A DNA stretch of 64,000 nucleotides. It comes from an uncultured Bacteroidales bacterium. GTDB lineage: Bacteria; Bacteroidota; Bacteroidia; Bacteroidales; CAIXZF01. The translations under genes were made by a program, and so were the position numbers. A model generated the notes under the pieces. It saw nothing but the letters and a program-made list of their open reading frames with translations, had not been told where the DNA came from and did no database searches. Each line of letters starts with the position of its first letter. Within the stretch, counting starts at the first letter, position 1. This document shows, piece by piece, positions 41,952-62,035 of the stretch. Location: assembly GCA_903923925.1 (NCBI GenBank), contig CAIXZF010000035.1, forward strand, positions 186,001 to 250,000, written 5' to 3'.

Positions 41952-44900
41952 TTATTTAATCACATTTACGAAACTTCTTTTTTCAAAAGTTTGCCCTTCT
42001 GAGGTTATAAACTTCACGTAGTATACATACACACCAGCAGGAACATATTCGTCTTTGTATCTCCCGTTCCAGCCTTCATTCGGATCATTAGTTCTGAATA
42101 ATTCCTCTCCCCAGCGGCTCCAAATCACAAACACATAATTGCTCTTATCAACAAAAACCCCAATTGGTTTAAAGATACTGTTATACCCTTTTGGCGAGAA
42201 TGCATTTGGAATATGAATTAACGAAGGCTGTACATCGTAAGCACGGTTAGAATACGAGGTGTCACCAAAAGCTGGAAGACCGTTACCTTGCAGTGCTTCA
42301 ATAAAATACCTGAATTTTCCCTGAGTAGTTGTATAATTAGAGACATCATCCACATATTGGATCTGTCCGGAAGGAACAGTAGCAATTGGTATAGGATCAA
42401 CCATTCCATCTATACCCCTGAATATATTGTAGGATTTCACAAACGACCAGTTCCAGCCTTCATAATCATTCCAGTTAAGCAAATTGGAGAAGTCAGTTCT
42501 GGCAGAAACCGTAAGATGTATCGTACGGGAAGTATCGGAATGCATTACATCAATTCCGCAACTGTCGATTACACTGTAGTAGTAATAAAAACTTGTATTA
42601 TTTACAGAAGTTGTGACGTCATAATAGTCTAAATCAGGCAAACCTGTTGGCAGGAGATCATAGATTAATTCGTACGGACCTGCTTTTTCTGTAGCCCTGA
42701 AGATCTTGTATGAAATAATAAAAGCAGAAGTATCAACAAATAGTTTCAGGTGAACTTTGTCATTGTTTTCAACACTTACATTTCTTAGGTATGTAAACTG
42801 AGGTTGATTTGGTTTGGTTGCAAATACACAGGCAGAGCAGGAAGTTGAAGTTTTTGAGGAATCATTGTTAAATGCCTGAACAACATAACAATAATATGAA
42901 TCCTGATTAAATCCCTGATGCGTATAATTCGTAGGAGGTTCCTGGCCGGCTGCGGCAGGTAATACTGTAGCAAGTAAGGAATAAGCGCTACCATTTTCAC
43001 TCATTAAAATCCTATAGCCAGCTATATATTCTTTCATATTAATGTAACTGTTCCACTTTAAGCTGATTTCATCGGCACATGGATCAATACCATCAATTTC
43101 AAGATGTATGGTATTATGAATATTGTTAACTCCCATTGGACTCATATTTCCGCAACTGTCTTTTGCAGCAAGTAAATAGGATTTTGAAATATCACATGAA
43201 TTTCCCGGAGAAATAGAATCAACGTAAGATGTATGCGAATATCCGGAAACAGAATCAAGCGGATTCCATATTCCATTTTCCAGGAAGAAAATAAAATATT
43301 GGGCTACGTCTGCTGATGATTCAAGCCAGCCGATTGTAACATGGCCAGTTAAAGTATCAATGCTAACTGTATCAAGAACCGGAGTTTGAGGAGGGATGTT
43401 ATCGGCATAGAAACCTTTTTTAACACAGGAAATGGATGAACATCCACTAATGTCAGCAATTTCAACCCTGTATGCAATTGAATCTGAACAGAGTACAAGC
43501 GTATCAAAAGTGGTGAGTGATAGCGTTTGGGCAACTGGCGACCAGGTTCCGGTTGGGAGTTCTCTGAACACTTTGTACGTCAATGATGATGATGGTAAAT
43601 CCGGAACGTGTATTGGATTCCAGGTTAATTGATTTACTGTGTCGTTTATTGGAGTAACAGTCAGGAATATTGAAGCAAGTGTATCAGTTGTAGTCGAAAC
43701 AAAGAAACCGTCGCAGGCAATCCTGTTAACCATATAGACATATTGAGAAGCAGTATTTCCATTTTGCGCATGTATTGTGGCAGTTGGCATATTTATGTCA
43801 GCAATACTATCCACAAGGTTGAATGGACCAAAAATGGATGTTGCTCCGTAAATGAGGTATGCGCTAAAATAATTCTGGCTTATGGTGTCGGAAGGAGGAG
43901 AATAGGTTAATGTAATTCCACCATTTGGTTCTACCGAGATACAATGTAATTCAGGAGGATTTGCATTCTGGAACAATGCGCTGTCCAAAGAAGAAACAGA
44001 GGTACATCCACTCGAATCAGTTAATGTTACTCTGAATTTCACATATCCACAGCCTGTTACAGTATCCAGAACACTTAAATTAAGTGAAGAATCTATTGTT
44101 AACCAGGTTCCGTCAAGTAATTGTCTTTGTACATGGTAAGGCCCCATTACTGTTAGTATTGGAGGAACATGCGGGCTATTCCATTGTAAATTTGCCGAAA
44201 TACTATTTATTGGAGTTGCATCCAGAAGAATTGTGCTTATTGTATCACTATTGTGAGAGTAGTATGAGCCATAACAACCTGATCGGGTTATCATATAATA
44301 ATACCTTTTAATATTTTGGCCATCAACGCTGTGATGAGCATAAGATGTTGTGAAATAGCTGTCAACGCTGTCTATCAAAGTGAAAGGACCTGCAGGATTT
44401 ATTGCACTATAAATAAAATATGCGCTGAACGTATTCGGAATTATTGTTGTATCAGGTGGTTTCCAGGATAAAATAATATCACCATTTTCGAGTATTTCAG
44501 TGCATTTTGGATCAGGATGCGGCATAATCGCATTCTTAATTACGATAGTAATAGTGGAAACTTTGATTGCCGGGGCTGGACAATAGTCATCCATTGTTTT
44601 TATAATAAAGTTGTATGTATTTGAAACTCCGCCGCAACCTGTACTTGTTTGAAGGTGGGCACATGTTGTTTGCCAATGAAAGTTTGTCTGTGTAAACATA
44701 AATCCGGTGAGCGGAGGTGCAGGATCGAGTGTAGCACAGGGTGGATTCAGACAGCCAGCTAAAGAATTTGTATAACCTGTGCCAAACTGGTTTCCAGATG
44801 CTGTTAGATTAAGGGTTTGTCCATCAATACCATTGTTGAGTAAATCGAAATCCTGGGCAGACATGCCAAAATCTACAACTGCACCTGCATATACTGTATC

Positions 44901-45896
44901 TACATACTCTGTAAACAATCCGGTATTTGGATTTATAAAAGGTGATGTTACTTCTGGGGGTCCATTATTCTGGCAGTTTAAGAGAACAATCTGCATTTCT
45001 CTAAAAATCTCTGCAATTTTAATTCCACATTTCCATGCAGTAACTTTTGTAACAGTTACATAAGCACCTGAAGTAAATGAGGTAAATGAAATTTCCCCGG
45101 TAAATGCATTTACTGTAGCTGCAACATTATTAATATTTTGCGTAGGGCCAGGTAGCGGACTATTGTATGAAAAACCAGGATAGTAATTTAGAATGGGTGA
45201 ATTTGCATTATCATAGGGTTGTGACCATGAATACGAAAGGGAATCCAGTTCTTTGTCGGTAGCATTCGGATTGTATGTGAATGGATATCCTGTACAAATA
45301 ACAGTTGACGGACGTTCAATAAAAATTGGTGAGTTATCCCAGCAAGGATTTACCGCCTGCCCATTATATGGGTACATAATTGCTCTTAGAAATGCACATA
45401 ACCCGCTGGCACTTTGAATATTTGCGCAATCATTTCTGTTACAGACAGAAATCGAGAACACGTATCCGGAAGCAGGGGGTACTCCGCTAATCATTACTCC
45501 ATTCGGATAGGTTTGGTCAGATGTGAAGTACCATTCCTCAACCCCTCCGGTATTAGGTTGGGTTGTAGATCCACAGGTTAAATGAGTGTAAGCCGGATTT
45601 GGATTGCATACTGGAGACATATCTGTACGTCCAAGAGTCGAATTCGGATAAAGATTCAGTGTTATCCCTGATATTGCTGTAGGGTCTATATTTCCACTTG
45701 GTATGTTATGGTTTAAAATAATATTGGGACCATATTCAATCCCTGCACATTCCCTGTAGACCCTTACAATAAATCTGTAGTTTCCGTTAGGCAAGCACTC
45801 CCAGAAAATCTCACCTCCCATAAAATGTGAAGCAAATGCCTGAGGGATCAATCCCAAAAGCATAAATAAAAATAGGAAAACACCTTTGCGAACCAT
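41952..45896 (-). CDS. Large T9SS type B (gliding-motility C-terminal domain) secreted protein
   Basis: A 1314-residue exported protein. The signal peptide (about 1-22) is followed by SHFMGGEIFWECL, a start often seen in Bacteroidota gliding/adhesin proteins, and a Cys-rich beta region to about residue 450. Fibronectin III-like modules then fill about 460-1215. Two of these blocks of about 185 residues are clear duplicates: 463-645 and 650-835 share FSAYFIYSA/FSAYLIYGA, PAGPFTLIDS/IFGPFNLVDS and LQWNSPHVP/LTWNPIHVP. The last 85 residues are a CHU_C type B sorting domain (IPNAFSPKGYNS, VFVIWSRWGEELF, AGVYVYYVKF). It is last in an M16/sigma operon and probably forms a surface-attached adhesin. 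Confidence 0.92.
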   Translation of the reverse strand: MVRKGVFLFLFMLLGLIPQAFASHFMGGEIFWECLPNGNYRFIVRVYRECAGIEYGPNIILNHNIPSGNIDPTAISGITLNLYPNSTLGRTDMSPVCNPNPAYTHLTCGSTTQPNTGGVEEWYFTSDQTYPNGVMISGVPPASGYVFSISVCNRNDCANIQSASGLCAFLRAIMYPYNGQAVNPCWDNSPIFIERPSTVICTGYPFTYNPNATDKELDSLSYSWSQPYDNANSPILNYYPGFSYNSPLPGPTQNINNVAATVNAFTGEISFTSFTSGAYVTVTKVTAWKCGIKIAEIFREMQIVLLNCQNNGPPEVTSPFINPNTGLFTEYVDTVYAGAVVDFGMSAQDFDLLNNGIDGQTLNLTASGNQFGTGYTNSLAGCLNPPCATLDPAPPLTGFMFTQTNFHWQTTCAHLQTSTGCGGVSNTYNFIIKTMDDYCPAPAIKVSTITIVIKNAIMPHPDPKCTEILENGDIILSWKPPDTTIIPNTFSAYFIYSAINPAGPFTLIDSVDSYFTTSYAHHSVDGQNIKRYYYMITRSGCYGSYYSHNSDTISTILLDATPINSISANLQWNSPHVPPILTVMGPYHVQRQLLDGTWLTIDSSLNLSVLDTVTGCGYVKFRVTLTDSSGCTSVSSLDSALFQNANPPELHCISVEPNGGITLTYSPPSDTISQNYFSAYLIYGATSIFGPFNLVDSIADINMPTATIHAQNGNTASQYVYMVNRIACDGFFVSTTTDTLASIFLTVTPINDTVNQLTWNPIHVPDLPSSSLTYKVFRELPTGTWSPVAQTLSLTTFDTLVLCSDSIAYRVEIADISGCSSISCVKKGFYADNIPPQTPVLDTVSIDTLTGHVTIGWLESSADVAQYFIFFLENGIWNPLDSVSGYSHTSYVDSISPGNSCDISKSYLLAAKDSCGNMSPMGVNNIHNTIHLEIDGIDPCADEISLKWNSYINMKEYIAGYRILMSENGSAYSLLATVLPAAAGQEPPTNYTHQGFNQDSYYCYVVQAFNNDSSKTSTSCSACVFATKPNQPQFTYLRNVSVENNDKVHLKLFVDTSAFIISYKIFRATEKAGPYELIYDLLPTGLPDLDYYDVTTSVNNTSFYYYYSVIDSCGIDVMHSDTSRTIHLTVSARTDFSNLLNWNDYEGWNWSFVKSYNIFRGIDGMVDPIPIATVPSGQIQYVDDVSNYTTTQGKFRYFIEALQGNGLPAFGDTSYSNRAYDVQPSLIHIPNAFSPKGYNSIFKPIGVFVDKSNYVFVIWSRWGEELFRTNDPNEGWNGRYKDEYVPAGVYVYYVKFITSEGQTFEKRSFVNVIK

Positions 45897-45908
45897 GATA
45901 ATATTTTG

Positions 45909-47237
45909 TTAATTATTTAATTCAGTTTTACCTACAACCAATCTTATCATTTGATTTACAGGATAATATAACTTTGCTGCATTCATAATATCTAATGATG
46001 TCGTATTCTGAATGTGCTGGATAGTATTAAGAAAATGAGAATCTTCAAGGTTTAAATAATGCCGTTCTTTAAATTTCTCTGCAAAGCTAAACGGGCCATC
46101 AATACTTTGAAGAAATCCTCCGATCATAAAGTTTTTAACAAGGTTTAATTCTTCTTCAATTACAGGGATATTATGAAGTAAAGAGATCTCATTAAAAACC
46201 TCATCGATAACCTGTTTTGTTTTATCAGCATTGACTTCTGAGCTGATAACCATATACGTAAACTTTTCAAAGGAAATCAGATTTGCGCCAATCCCGTAGG
46301 TTAATCCTTTTTCTTCACGAATATTCTTCATTAATCGGGATCCGAAAAAACCTCCCAACAGGGTATTAAGCACTTTCAAAGTAGTAAAATCCTCATGATC
46401 AGGAGTTATGGTAGTCATTCCGATCCGTATTGCTGATTGAACAGCGTTCTCCCTTGCAAAATGGAGTTCTTTGGGTTTTAAATCTATATCAGGCCAAAAG
46501 GTTTGTTTAGGCTCGTTTATACCCCATATTTCCTTTCCGAAGGAATTGTGTATTAGTTCAGCAGAAAGTTCAGGGTTTGCAGAGGAAATAAAAATTTCAC
46601 AATTATCAGAGGAATAGTAATTTCTATGGAATTGCTTAATGTGATCAATTCTTAGATTGTTAAAATCTTCCGATTCTGCCATTCTGCCATAAGGGTGTTC
46701 TTTTCCAAAAAGAGTCTCATTGAATTCTCTGGATGCAACATACCCTACCTTTTCCATATTTGTATGGAATTCCTGTTTCTGACGGGCAAGCATAAGATTA
46801 AGCTCGTCCTGAGGAAATGATGGGAATTTGATAATTGATTCAAGTAAAGGAAGAACGCTGGACAAGTATTTAGCCATGCAAATGACTCCTACTGTGGCTC
46901 TGTCCCTTTCACAAGATAAAATCAATGAAGCCCCGAAAAGGTCAAAGGTATCAGCGATTTCATAAGATGAATATTCTTGGGATCCTTCTCTTAATAAACT
47001 GTTTGTAAATGATGCTGTTAAAGGAAAATCCTGATATCTTGAGCCTGCTTTAAAAATGAGTTCAAGTTTTACAAGTTCATGCGTTCCTGATTTAAACTGA
47101 TAAACAGGGATACTGTTGGAAAGTCTTGACAGAACAGGATTTAGTAATTCTAAACCTGAAAAGCCATCCTGCGCAGATATTTTATGCAGATGAGTAATTC
47201 TGGGTGGCTCTTTCCTGAAAGAATGGCTGTTTATCAT
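45909..47237 (-). CDS. M16 family zinc peptidase subunit lacking the HxxEH motif
   Basis: A 442-residue M16B-fold protein. The position that should hold HxxEH reads TASFTNSLLREGSQEY, so no zinc site is formed. The substrate-binding R/Y element of the non-catalytic subunit is intact: GGFFGSRLMKNIREEKGLTY. This is the classic inactive partner of a two-chain M16 protease. The catalytic partner is probably the 49009-50250 gene, three genes upstream in the same run. There is no obvious signal peptide. It lies 12 bases upstream of the large T9SS type B gene and 12 bases after the membrane CHU_C protein gene. Confidence 0.92.
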   Translation of the reverse strand: MINSHSFRKEPPRITHLHKISAQDGFSGLELLNPVLSRLSNSIPVYQFKSGTHELVKLELIFKAGSRYQDFPLTASFTNSLLREGSQEYSSYEIADTFDLFGASLILSCERDRATVGVICMAKYLSSVLPLLESIIKFPSFPQDELNLMLARQKQEFHTNMEKVGYVASREFNETLFGKEHPYGRMAESEDFNNLRIDHIKQFHRNYYSSDNCEIFISSANPELSAELIHNSFGKEIWGINEPKQTFWPDIDLKPKELHFARENAVQSAIRIGMTTITPDHEDFTTLKVLNTLLGGFFGSRLMKNIREEKGLTYGIGANLISFEKFTYMVISSEVNADKTKQVIDEVFNEISLLHNIPVIEEELNLVKNFMIGGFLQSIDGPFSFAEKFKERHYLNLEDSHFLNTIQHIQNTTSLDIMNAAKLYYPVNQMIRLVVGKTELNN

Positions 47238-47249
47238 ACGAATCTGTTA

Positions 47250-48332
47250 TTATCTCAGTAGCGTGAGATGGCCATTTACAGTATGTGATTTGCCTAAAGT
47301 ATCTGTGTATTTTATCTGGTAAATATATACCCCTGTTTCAGCAATTTTCCCTTTAATATAGCCATCCCATCCTTTAGAAATCTCATGCGACTCGAAAAGG
47401 ACCTGACTGGTTCTGGAAAAAATTATCATACTGAATCCAGTAATATCTTGTCCGGCAGCTTTAAAAATGTCATTTAAATTGTCCGAATTAGGAGTGAATG
47501 CATTAGGTATTGAAATAACAGAGCAGTCTCCGACTTTTACTGTGAAGTCGTGTATAATTAATGCTCCGTTAAAATCGGTAACACTAACAGTATAGGCAGA
47601 AGTATTTGATGGACTTACCATGATGTAGGCAGAAGTAGAACCGTTGCTCCAAATGTAGGATTCGCCACCACTGGCCGATAACCTTACGCTGTCTCCTTTG
47701 CAAATCATTTGATCATCGGAAAAGTCAATGGTCGATTTCACAGTGTTCTCAGAGAAAGTGTTATTATTCTCAGAATTATCGGTAGTTTTTAATTTCGTTG
47801 ATGGATTATTTGAAATGAGCCTTTGTTCCTGTTTTAGTGTAACTTGTGCAAGAGTACTAAGTTTTTGGGTTTTTGATTCAGGTTCAGACAATTTTGAAAT
47901 TGGAACTTTTTCGCTGATTAATTCAACTAAAGATGGCTTAGCTGCTTCGTTCTCATTCGTATTTACAGATTCTCCTTTAATACTAACGTGTTTTGCTGTA
48001 ATTTTAGCTGAATTCGCTACTCCTGTAATAGTTGAAGGTATTGACTGATTCTTGACAGATTGGTTAATATCTTTTATCTGGTTTGAAATTTGAGATTCTC
48101 TTTTCAAATTCTCCTTTAATTCAGGTTTGAAAACATATAAAATACTTACAGTTGCAATTATTGCAACTGAAGAAAGAATAACTTTTTTCATTGTTAAGAA
48201 ACCTGGTTTTTGTGCAGGTTTAAGACCTGGATGCTTGCTTATTTTTTCCCATAATTCGTGAGATGGCTCAGCATTAAATTTTTGGAAAGCGTTACGGTAC
48301 AGTTCACCGATTTTGCTTTTTTCTGTTTCCAT
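47250..48332 (-). CDS. Single-pass membrane protein with T9SS type B-like C-terminal domain, in anti-sigma position
   Basis: A 360-residue protein; I use the ATG at 48332 rather than a TTG 15 bases upstream. The N-terminal 43 residues look cytoplasmic and carry LYRNAFQKFNAEPSHELWEK, a pattern common in Bacteroidota proteins paired with ECF sigma factors. One uncleaved membrane helix follows at about residues 47-64 (VILSSVAIIATVSILYVF). Next come a Ser/Lys-rich linker, an Ig/PKD-like domain (ICKGDSVRLSASGGESYIW) and a CHU_C-type domain (IPNAFTPNSDNLNDIFKAAG, GVYIYQIKYTD). It lies 26 bases after the sigma gene. It may sense T9SS or envelope state and hold the sigma factor; that role is inference. 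Confidence 0.82.
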   Translation of the reverse strand: METEKSKIGELYRNAFQKFNAEPSHELWEKISKHPGLKPAQKPGFLTMKKVILSSVAIIATVSILYVFKPELKENLKRESQISNQIKDINQSVKNQSIPSTITGVANSAKITAKHVSIKGESVNTNENEAAKPSLVELISEKVPISKLSEPESKTQKLSTLAQVTLKQEQRLISNNPSTKLKTTDNSENNNTFSENTVKSTIDFSDDQMICKGDSVRLSASGGESYIWSNGSTSAYIMVSPSNTSAYTVSVTDFNGALIIHDFTVKVGDCSVISIPNAFTPNSDNLNDIFKAAGQDITGFSMIIFSRTSQVLFESHEISKGWDGYIKGKIAETGVYIYQIKYTDTLGKSHTVNGHLTLLR

Positions 48333-48358
48333 ATTATTGATATTCAATAATTAATCTT

Positions 48359-48910
48359 TTATAATTTTAACTTTTCTTTATTTAGTTCTACAACCTTCTT
48401 TTGCAACACTTTCCGTGCCTTTAAAAGCTGGGTCTTCGAAGTACTCACTGAGATTGCAAACATTTCAGCAATTTCTTTGTGGCTATAACCTTCAATCTCA
48501 TAAAGGTTAAACACCATGCGGTACCCGGGTGGAAGTTCAACAAGTAATCTTAGCATATCCTCTTTCGAAATGTTACTGATCAGGTCAGCTTCATCGCTCA
48601 GCTCGTTTTCAACTTCTTCCAGATCCAGATGATGCTGGTGTTTTTGATGATTGCGCAACTGGTTTAAAGCAGTATTGACGATAATCCTTCTTACCCAGCC
48701 TTCTAAAGAGCCTTCATTTCTGAATGTTCCAAGGTTAGTAAAAACCCTGATAAATCCCTCCTGAAGTGCATCTTCAGCCTCTTCCCTGCTATCAAAATAT
48801 CGCAAGCAAACGCCGAACATGCTGCTTGCAAATTTTTTGTATAGCTGTTGCTGAACATCTTGCTTTCCTTCAATACAGCCTTTTATAAGTTCCGCATCAC
48901 TAATCATCAT
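48359..48910 (-). CDS. ECF-type RNA polymerase sigma factor
   Basis: A 183-residue sigma-70 family factor with regions 2 and 4 only. Region 2 spans about 20-90: YFDSREEAEDALQEGFIRVF, then EGWVRRIIVNTALNQLR. Region 4 spans about 120-175: LPPGYRMVFNLYEIEGYSHKEIAEMF and SKTQLLKARKVLQKK. It is followed after 26 bases by a single-pass membrane protein in the usual anti-sigma place. The sigma gene lies between the two M16 peptidase genes, so its regulon may include this operon. No ECF-type promoter could be identified with confidence. Confidence 0.95.
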   Translation of the reverse strand: MMISDAELIKGCIEGKQDVQQQLYKKFASSMFGVCLRYFDSREEAEDALQEGFIRVFTNLGTFRNEGSLEGWVRRIIVNTALNQLRNHQKHQHHLDLEEVENELSDEADLISNISKEDMLRLLVELPPGYRMVFNLYEIEGYSHKEIAEMFAISVSTSKTQLLKARKVLQKKVVELNKEKLKL

Positions 48911-49008
48911 TGCTGTTTACAATTTTTAGACACAAGTTGATTCCGAAAAGTTGCCCTGAATTCATTTATAGACTGATCAGATTTGTATTTTAACACTTTT
49001 TAATAAAT

Positions 49009-50250
49009 TCATAGTGTGTCTTTCTTATAATACAAGAAAGATGCATTATTAAATTCAAGGATAGAGTTAGAAACCCGACTGATGTCATTTAGTGTAACTG
49101 ATTCATAGTTAGCAAGTTCTTCATTAACCAAATTGGCATTCCCGAGATTTTCAAAAATTGCGAGATTCATTGCTTTATCAAGCGCTTTTAGTTCAGAATA
49201 GGCAATTGCTGTTTCAGCTTTGTGCTTTACCTTATCGAGTTCATTTAATTCAAGGTTTTTAGTAATGAATTCAGAAATGCCCCCTCTTAAACCATTTGCT
49301 GCTTCTTCAATATTAATGTTATTTTTAACTTTTCCTGCCAGAATAAAAAGGCCATTTTCAACATCACCAGTATTGAAAGCATCCAGTTCACTGAATAGTT
49401 GTTTCTTTTTTACTAATTCTCTGTACAGATGTGAAGATTCACTTCCACAGAGAATATCAGAAATAAGGTCAGTTGAATAAAAATCAGGGTGTTTTCTGCC
49501 TGGGCAATGAAATGAAAGATAAATTGAATCATAAGGCACGTCTCTGATAACAGTCATGCTTCTTTCTTTGATTTGAACAGGCTCTGATGGAAGAAGTCTT
49601 TTGTATGAGAAATTCCGTTGGATTGGCCCGAACCATTTCTCCGCAAATCTAAAAATTTCATCCGGGTCAACGTTACCAGACACAGCAAGAATAGCATTTG
49701 CCGGAGCGTAATGTTTATTGAAAAACTCACGTATTTCATCATCGCCAGCATTTTCGATATGGCTAATATCTTTACCTATTGTTGGCCAGGAGTATGGATG
49801 AACTTTATAGGCAAGTGGTCTTAGCAGCAACCAGGCATCACCGTACGGTTGATTTAAATACCGCTGTTTGAATTCTTCAATTACAACAGCTTTTTGAACA
49901 TTAATACTATTCTGGTTTAATGTTAATGAATTAAGCCGGTCTGACTCAAGCCAGAAAGCTGTTTCCAGGTTTTGCTTTGGAATTGTAATGAAATAATTTG
50001 TTATATCGCTTGAAGTGAAGGCATTACTTTGGCCGCCGGCTTCTTCAAGAGGACCATCAAATGAGATTACATTTTCAGATCCTCCAAACATCAGGTGTTC
50101 AAAAAGGTGGGCAAGTCCGGTTCTGTCAGGGGATTCATCTTTGGAACCGACATTGTAAAGCATATTAAAAGCCGCAATGGGAGCACTCTTATCTATATGA
50201 ACCAGAACACGTAAGCCATTTGCCAGGATATGTTTCTGAAAATTAATCAT
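49009..50250 (-). CDS. M16 family zinc metallopeptidase, catalytic subunit
   Basis: A 413-residue M16B peptidase. The zinc motif HLFEH is at residues 48-52, and the third ligand is Glu125 or Glu126 in AVVIEEFKQR. The R/Y element that binds substrate in the partner chain is degenerate here (HLYRELVKKKQLFSELDAF), which complements the non-catalytic subunit at 45909-47237. There is no signal peptide, so location is uncertain. It is the first gene of the minus-strand block, with a strong promoter that overlaps the divergent glyA promoter, and it is 98 bases upstream of the sigma gene. Confidence 0.94.
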   Translation of the reverse strand: MINFQKHILANGLRVLVHIDKSAPIAAFNMLYNVGSKDESPDRTGLAHLFEHLMFGGSENVISFDGPLEEAGGQSNAFTSSDITNYFITIPKQNLETAFWLESDRLNSLTLNQNSINVQKAVVIEEFKQRYLNQPYGDAWLLLRPLAYKVHPYSWPTIGKDISHIENAGDDEIREFFNKHYAPANAILAVSGNVDPDEIFRFAEKWFGPIQRNFSYKRLLPSEPVQIKERSMTVIRDVPYDSIYLSFHCPGRKHPDFYSTDLISDILCGSESSHLYRELVKKKQLFSELDAFNTGDVENGLFILAGKVKNNINIEEAANGLRGGISEFITKNLELNELDKVKHKAETAIAYSELKALDKAMNLAIFENLGNANLVNEELANYESVTLNDISRVSNSILEFNNASFLYYKKDTL

Positions 50251-50304: not shown

Positions 50305-50332
50305 TTGGGATGCAAAATTATTTCTAACTTTG
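50305..50332 (+). promoter_or_regulatory. Promoter of glyA
   Basis: TTG (50305-50307), a 17-base spacer and TAACTTTG (50325-50332) match the phylum consensus. The leader is about 40 bases. It overlaps the divergent M16 promoter. Confidence 0.65.
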
Positions 50333-61522: not shown

Positions 61523-62035
61523 TTAGTGTGAAGTATTCATCCCTTGCAGGTTTTCCATGAGTTTTTTCCTTCCAAAGAAAATCCGACTTTTAACTGTTCC
61601 GATTGAAATACGTAATGATTCGGCTATCTCTTTGTATTTGTAACCTTGTGTATGCATTTCGAAGGGAACCCTTTGTTCTGAATCGAGCATATCTACTCTT
61701 TTTTTAACATCTTTATGAGATAATTCTGATTCAGGAGAAGCAATTCCAGACTCTTTAGGAAGATTTAGAAAATATAGATCTTCAGTAGTATCAATAATTG
61801 CATTTGTACGGATACTCCTACGGTAATTATTAATGAAAGTATTTTTCATTATTGTGAAAGTCCATGCTTTCAGGTTAGTATTGTCCTCAAATTTGTCACG
61901 ATTGGTCAGTGCTTTAATATATGTGTCCTGTACCAGATCCTTAGCTTCTTCATGATTAGAGGTCAACGTCATTGCAAAATAGTGAAGATTATCCTGCAAA
62001 CTAGTCAGCTTATGATTGAATTCTATTGCGGTCAT
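61523..62035 (-). CDS. ECF-type RNA polymerase sigma factor (next to CarH)
   Basis: A 170-residue sigma-70 family factor with region 2 (about 10-80: NHEEAKDLVQDTYIKAL, NLKAWTFTIMKNTFINNYRR) and region 4 (about 110-165: EQRVPFEMHTQGYKYKEIAE, SIGTVKSRIFFGRKKL). No anti-sigma gene follows; a terminator does. It lies 291 bases downstream of a CarH-type B12/light regulator on the same strand. In other Bacteroidota a CarH-like regulator and a similar sigma factor often sit before carotenoid genes, as I recall. That suggests CarH may control this gene, although no crt genes are seen here. Confidence 0.94.
   Translation of the reverse strand: MTAIEFNHKLTSLQDNLHYFAMTLTSNHEEAKDLVQDTYIKALTNRDKFEDNTNLKAWTFTIMKNTFINNYRRSIRTNAIIDTTEDLYFLNLPKESGIASPESELSHKDVKKRVDMLDSEQRVPFEMHTQGYKYKEIAESLRISIGTVKSRIFFGRKKLMENLQGMNTSH

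Follow-up and report, generated by a model that had tools for sequence, protein, structure and literature searches.

The window analysed here, a stretch of 64,000 nucleotides from an uncultured Bacteroidales bacterium (contig CAIXZF010000035.1), carries on its minus strand the gene of an extracytoplasmic function (ECF) sigma factor, followed by that of a single-pass membrane protein which is very probably its cognate anti-sigma factor and which ends in a type B sorting domain of the type IX secretion system (T9SS). Comparison among relatives shows the architecture of this protein, the homology of its anti-sigma domain, the conservation of the pair, a promoter with which the sigma factor would transcribe its own gene, and the presence of the same motif before genes for T9SS cargo. 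We propose that engagement of the sorting domain by the T9SS frees the sigma factor, a mechanism for which we judge the case evenly balanced.

The membrane partner of the sigma factor

The pair and the parts of the membrane protein are located as follows, with evidence in brackets (pLDDT, predicted local distance difference test).

48359..48910, minus strand: ECF sigma factor, 183 amino acids (Sigma70_r2, Sigma70_r4_2, TIGR02937)
47250..48332, minus strand: membrane protein of 360 amino acids, very probably the anti-sigma factor, ending in a T9SS type B sorting domain (open reading frame, domains, homologues, AlphaFold2)
48204..48332, minus strand: its predicted anti-sigma domain at the N-terminus, residues 1-43, comprising two short helices and an invariant W28 (hhalign, AlphaFold2)
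48129..48200, minus strand: transmembrane helix, residues 45-68 (hydropathy, AlphaFold2 helix)
47736..48086, minus strand: disordered periplasmic tether, residues 83-199 (pLDDT below 50, composition)
47253..47726, minus strand: Ig-like domain and then CHU_C/TIGR04131 type B sorting domain, its CHU_C part running from about 47516 downwards (domain scans, AlphaFold2)

Comparison with homologues makes the ATG at 48332 (METEKSK) a more likely start of the membrane protein than the TTG at 48347, which opens the longer frame 47250-48347. The AlphaFold2 model, whose mean pLDDT of 62.8 is lowered because one third of the chain is disordered, has N-terminal helices at residues 5-15 and 25-33, a tether with pLDDT of about 25-30 over most of its length, and two folded beta domains at residues 200-360 (pLDDT about 83-93).

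The motif at the N-terminus, I-x-x-L-F/Y ... P-x-x-x-x-W-x-x-I, is likewise found at the start of the partners of paralogous sigma factors of the same genome (L157 and L158; L numbers denote loci and G numbers genomes, G000 being that of the window and G001 a relative of the same family), and the C-termini of these two partners match barrel profiles built in this analysis. Pfam barrel matches are weak, PF13568 scoring above its cut-off only in L161 and just below it in L156 and L154, with a sub-threshold match only in L158 and none in L157. When the N-terminal set was aligned by hhalign with that of the barrel-type partners, the probability was 98.8 and the E value 4e-17; searching PDB sequences with the anti-sigma domain gave no match. 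A downstream partner is present for 180 of the 184 sigma genes examined. Because the protein adjoins the sigma factor, is homologous at its N-terminus to barrel-type partners and has the succession of helices, transmembrane segment and tether seen in the dual membrane-spanning anti-sigma factors (Dma), it is very probably the cognate anti-sigma factor, as an earlier, sequence-only reading of the window had proposed. In five loci (L027, L293, L295, L153 and L339) the anti-sigma N-terminus contains a tandem double P-x(4)-W-x-x-I helix motif, as if it had two sigma-binding segments.

The outer part of the protein, which that reading had likened to a secretion signal, proved to be a full-length type B sorting domain, scoring 55.9 bits with TIGR04131 (curated cut-off 35) and 51.3 with CHU_C, and keeping the type B features P-FTPN-D--ND, GWDG, GVY-Y and G-LTLLR to the last residue. 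A Foldseek search for a CTD structure (CTD, T9SS C-terminal domain) returned only generic tandem Ig-like folds. No cleavable signal peptide was seen by eye or by hydropathy, no dedicated predictor having been run, and the chain begins with a 43-residue soluble segment followed by the transmembrane helix. Since the window's genome encodes SprA, a T9SS is likely present and the tag should be recognisable in principle; the same genome has 30 CHU_C domains above cut-off.

The operon, its relatives and the apparent exchange of tails

The pair lies among the following features.

48927..48954, minus strand: GCAACTTTTCGGAATCAACTTGTGTCTA, a probable sigma-dependent promoter that lies 16 bases upstream of the sigma ATG (kept upstream of sigma in relatives)
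45909..47237, minus strand: non-catalytic partner (M16n), an M16 peptidase-like chain of 442 amino acids that lacks HxxEH (open reading frame, domains)
41952..45896, minus strand: exported protein of 1314 amino acids, containing fn3-like repeats and a CHU_C domain, probably the last gene of the sigma operon (open reading frame, domains)
49009..50250, minus strand: M16 peptidase chain with HLFEH (catalytic, M16c), 413 amino acids (open reading frame, domains)
50313-50320, upstream of M16c: TAATTTTG element of housekeeping type, probably the promoter of M16c itself

The five-gene order described from the letters alone, with the HLFEH chain, the sigma factor, the membrane protein, the second M16 chain and the CHU_C cargo following one another on the minus strand, is present as stated, and the reported gaps of 12-26 bases were also confirmed: 26 bases separate sigma from the membrane protein (11 with the TTG start), and the next two gaps are 12 and 12. 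M16c stands 98 bases from the sigma gene and is probably outside the sigma operon, because this gap contains the ECF-type promoter at 48927-48954; the operon would then probably consist of sigma, anti-sigma, M16n and cargo. The 1314-residue cargo scores 40.1 bits with CHU_C (cut-off 27) and 32 with TIGR04131, below the cut-off of 35.

Comparison of gene order, which the sequence-only reading had suggested as a check, recovered among relatives of the same order the full block in two other genera (L149 in G052, and L069) and partial orders elsewhere, and the sigma gene and the membrane protein recur together widely. M16c, sigma, putative anti-sigma factor and M16n follow one another in L147 (G053); sigma, anti-sigma, M16n and cargo do so in L148 (G050) and L151 (G040). 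The relative from the same family (L146, G001) has sigma, anti-sigma and cargo but lacks M16, and in L150 and L068 the pair is alone. A counterpart of the 1314-residue cargo is thus kept beside the pair in L146, L148, L149, L151 and L069. Several loci also have glyA, IMPDH and a PpiC-type isomerase as conserved landmark neighbours.

To define the breadth of the family we collected 184 sigma-partner pairs from relatives within the order and from a phylum-wide scan, and assigned partner types with profiles built in this analysis; 95 partners were of barrel type and 33 of CHU_C type. All six distant anti-sigma factors tested that bear a T9SS C-terminal domain (CTD) pass the Pfam CHU_C cut-off, and five of them also pass that of NCBIfam. 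The sigma factor of the window falls in a tree group of 11, all of CHU_C type (SH-aLRT 84). To place the CHU_C label on the sigma tree, in which many forks are weak, no fewer than 11 changes are required, and strongly supported branches force at least two of these; the label changes imply repeated swaps of barrel and CTD in this type of anti-sigma factor. Other tails were also found: the sigma partner at L306:2066-2833 (G055:C72) ends in a sorting domain of type A, scoring 24.4 bits with TIGR04183 and so barely above the cut-off of 23, and that at L332:1338-2285 (G034:C95) has a transmembrane segment, a tether and an OmpA-family peptidoglycan-binding C-terminus (PF00691, 47.5 bits).

The promoter motif and the probable regulon

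Upstream of the sigma gene, relatives share RCAACTTTT-N-TGTCTW at constant spacing (core CAACT-N16-TGTCT). We scanned seven genomes containing a CTD-type pair for RCAACT-N16-TGTCTW, with the reversed pattern as a control, and retrieved 31 sites, including GCAACTTTTCGGAATCAACTTGTGTCTA as an exact match. Twenty-one of these sites are intergenic before a gene, against none of the 39 readable sites of the reversed pattern, and with the four sigma genes left out the proportions are 17/27 and 0/39 (Fisher p about 3e-9). Raw counts show no enrichment (31 sites versus 40 reversed), so that only the position of sites relative to genes is informative.

The 17 genes downstream of these sites are mostly for exported proteins: 15 encode a signal-peptide-like N-terminus by a hydropathy rule and two are not exported. 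Sorting domains above cut-off are found in ten, seven of type B and three of type A, and five more have signal peptides; the share of CTD genes is far from chance at assumed background shares of 3-10 percent. The sites in the window's genome precede the sigma gene itself, a gene for a 2071-residue type B protein and one for a universal stress protein. The last of these genes (L208:2146-2991, G000:C97), with a strict-motif site 97 bases before it, is the one clear non-exported candidate in that genome. At L224:5476-7914 (G050:C324) the motif stands upstream of an N-terminal relative of the large cargo of the operon (ASHYMGGEITWEC) that has a type A tail.

In ten further genomes, 12 of the 14 downstream genes encode exported proteins, and the genomes with several sites carry CTD-type anti-sigma factors. 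The ten had been chosen as negative controls, but three of them (G048, G054 and G027) have the motif before genes for exported proteins and proved to carry CTD-type anti-sigma factors, and these three do not qualify as negatives. Genomes with such an anti-sigma factor contain more of these sites than genomes without, a post hoc comparison in which the labels were assigned after the sites had been seen. The strict motif precedes 7 of 31 CTD-type versus 0 of 79 barrel-type sigma genes; nevertheless, we rejected the motif as specific to CTD-type sigma factors, because a looser form, CAAC-N18-GTC, is shared with barrel-type paralogues (22/31 and 20/79, respectively). The assignment of the cargo promoters to this sigma factor is probable, and stays only so because paralogous sigma factors have similar promoters. 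Together, the presence of probable sigma-dependent promoters before T9SS cargo genes strengthens the link to the T9SS put forward earlier, and the anti-sigma factor bears the export tag of the probable products of its sigma factor.

Proposed mechanism, alternatives and known systems

We propose a Dma-like anti-sigma factor in which the barrel is replaced by Ig and type B domains. Residues 1-43 would hold the sigma factor at the inner membrane, the 24-residue helix would cross this membrane, the disordered tether (about 120-130 residues) would span the periplasm, and the C-terminal domain would be offered to the T9SS or to its PorP/SprF-type shuttles. The genes served by the sigma factor would be those of its own operon (sigma, anti-sigma, M16n and the large CHU_C cargo) and, in relatives, additional genes for T9SS cargo. 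A working T9SS would engage the tag, and the anti-sigma factor would be changed or destroyed, be it by pull, by exposure to proteolysis or by export of a cleaved tail; its loss would free the sigma factor, and cargo would be made when it is exportable, with a logic similar to that of flagellar FlgM. Sigma binding, recognition of the tag by the T9SS, and the sign and mechanism of release are the parts of the scheme that we infer. The report on T9SS load that was previously suggested is one of several conceivable signs of the response; a signal meaning that export is possible is more logical, because cargo, not machinery, seems to be controlled. FlgM, the anti-sigma factor of sigma-28, carries a signal for export by the very apparatus whose late substrates sigma-28 transcribes. 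The likeness lies in an anti-sigma factor carrying an export signal, and is one of analogy only, with no homology: FlgM is small, soluble and type III-exported, whereas the protein of the window is membrane-anchored and would use the T9SS. More tentatively, we can envisage a T9SS counterpart of the FlgM checkpoint together with interchangeable anti-sigma tails in Bacteroidota (barrel, type A CTD, type B CTD and OmpA), each reading out its own envelope pathway.

Several observations weigh against release by the T9SS. The window's genome has just two non-sigma intergenic sites with this spacing, one before cargo and one before the universal stress protein, and a large regulon was therefore not found there; in the same-family relative G001 there is no non-sigma intergenic site. 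Paralogous ECF sigma factors have similar promoter motifs, and a different one of them may act at the cargo promoters. The protein that carries the tag sits in the inner membrane and is apparently not cleaved, and a PorP/SprF-type shuttle gene was not found among the neighbouring genes; many type B substrates have such a shuttle adjacent, and orphan type B substrates without one are known (PMC12618676). Also, the CHU_C module could be a plain periplasmic Ig-like sensor.

The main rival, which we consider rather unlikely, is a Dma-like sensor of the envelope or surface that spans both membranes. The T9SS would then do no more than bring the tail to the outer membrane or surface, where it would be anchored by a PorP-like protein, as Dma proteins are by their barrel, and the sensor would respond to the condition of the envelope or surface and not to T9SS activity. 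The N-terminal half and the tether are indeed the same as in the barrel-type, Dma-like paralogues, and the various tails, including those of L306 and L332, differ in sorting route and share one envelope destination; taken alone, however, this explanation does not account for the probable regulon of T9SS cargo. Less probable again is an ordinary anti-sigma factor whose Ig/CHU_C-like periplasmic domain was co-opted as a sensor of a ligand or of cargo, with no use of the T9SS. The generic folds returned by Foldseek, the lack of an adjacent shuttle gene and the apparent lack of a cleavable signal peptide would all suit it; against it stand the type B features retained over the full length of the domain, its score above the curated cut-off and the repeated, independent recruitment of a sorting domain.

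The sequence-only reading had also cast the M16 chains as a possible processing protease for the anti-sigma factor. Both chains contain PF00675 and PF05193, and the complementary loss described for them is real, M16n lacking HxxEH and having REEKGLTYG and M16c the reverse, which is the two-chain arrangement of M16B, with HxxEH in one chain and the R/Y element in a partner devoid of it. Their embedding of the pair is likewise real, as M16c and M16n flank it here and in G052, G053 and L069, and the pair fills the 1.8-2.1 kb between them in G000, G052 and G053; yet in G001 and G021 the pair stands without this M16 subfamily, and G001 keeps sigma, anti-sigma and cargo. Conversely, M16c and M16n are directly adjacent, with no sigma between them, in 18 other genera of the order. 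Since neither chain has a signal peptide, both should be cytosolic and should not reach the periplasmic part of the anti-sigma factor. On topology and on the relatives without M16 we rejected M16 as a site-1 protease; M16n is co-located but dispensable to the circuit, and processing of the anti-sigma factor by M16 is highly improbable, although M16 may have a role in clearing the cytosolic stub.

Among known systems, the closest in architecture are the ECF21-linked Dma proteins of Bacteroides thetaiotaomicron, which consist of an anti-sigma domain, a transmembrane segment, a tether and a barrel (PMC13088901). As in these, the gene for the protein of the window immediately follows an ECF sigma gene, and the protein has an N-terminal domain, predicted to bind sigma and common with barrel-type members, one transmembrane segment, a long disordered tether and a C-terminal domain linked to the outer membrane; it differs in having Ig and CHU_C domains instead of the C-terminal outer-membrane beta-barrel, and its comparison with Dma1/Dma2 is one of architecture. 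It is, then, a related variant and not a Dma in the strict sense. The earlier statement that no such circuit has been described holds for the literature searched, although it did not name the Dma type, a known one to which the N-terminal half of the protein belongs; in full-text searches, with subscription papers outside their scope, we found no description of a CTD-bearing anti-sigma factor.

Porphyromonas gingivalis has a CTD protein, PorA, whose action lies upstream of PorXY-SigP, so that there too a protein with a T9SS CTD informs an ECF sigma factor controlling the T9SS (PMC7712824). Unlike the case proposed here, PorA is a separate secreted protein that signals by way of a two-component system, and the targets of SigP are machinery genes (PMC7712824), whereas in the window the membrane anti-sigma factor itself has the tag and control seems to fall on cargo genes. 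PorA is also reported to be restricted to Porphyromonas. A link of ECF-type promoters with T9SS genes and with an ECF/anti-sigma pair has likewise been described in Flavobacterium psychrophilum (SM6), but these promoters involve the machinery genes gldN and porU, belong to another order, and the anti-sigma factor is not described as having a CTD (PMC9723704).

The proposal bears on how Bacteroidota match the supply of large and costly T9SS cargo to export capacity. The known PorA-PorXY-SigP route begins at PorA; a widespread cargo-tagged anti-sigma factor, if true, would be a direct and genetically simple link, and would give a function to many ECF-adjacent proteins annotated just as "T9SS type B sorting domain-containing protein". 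It would also widen the Dma concept, so far tied to a single tail, into that of a modular family.

The window contains another ECF-type sigma factor, identified by a region 4 match at 61559-61708 (G000:C35:247559-247708), ~11 kb from the block.

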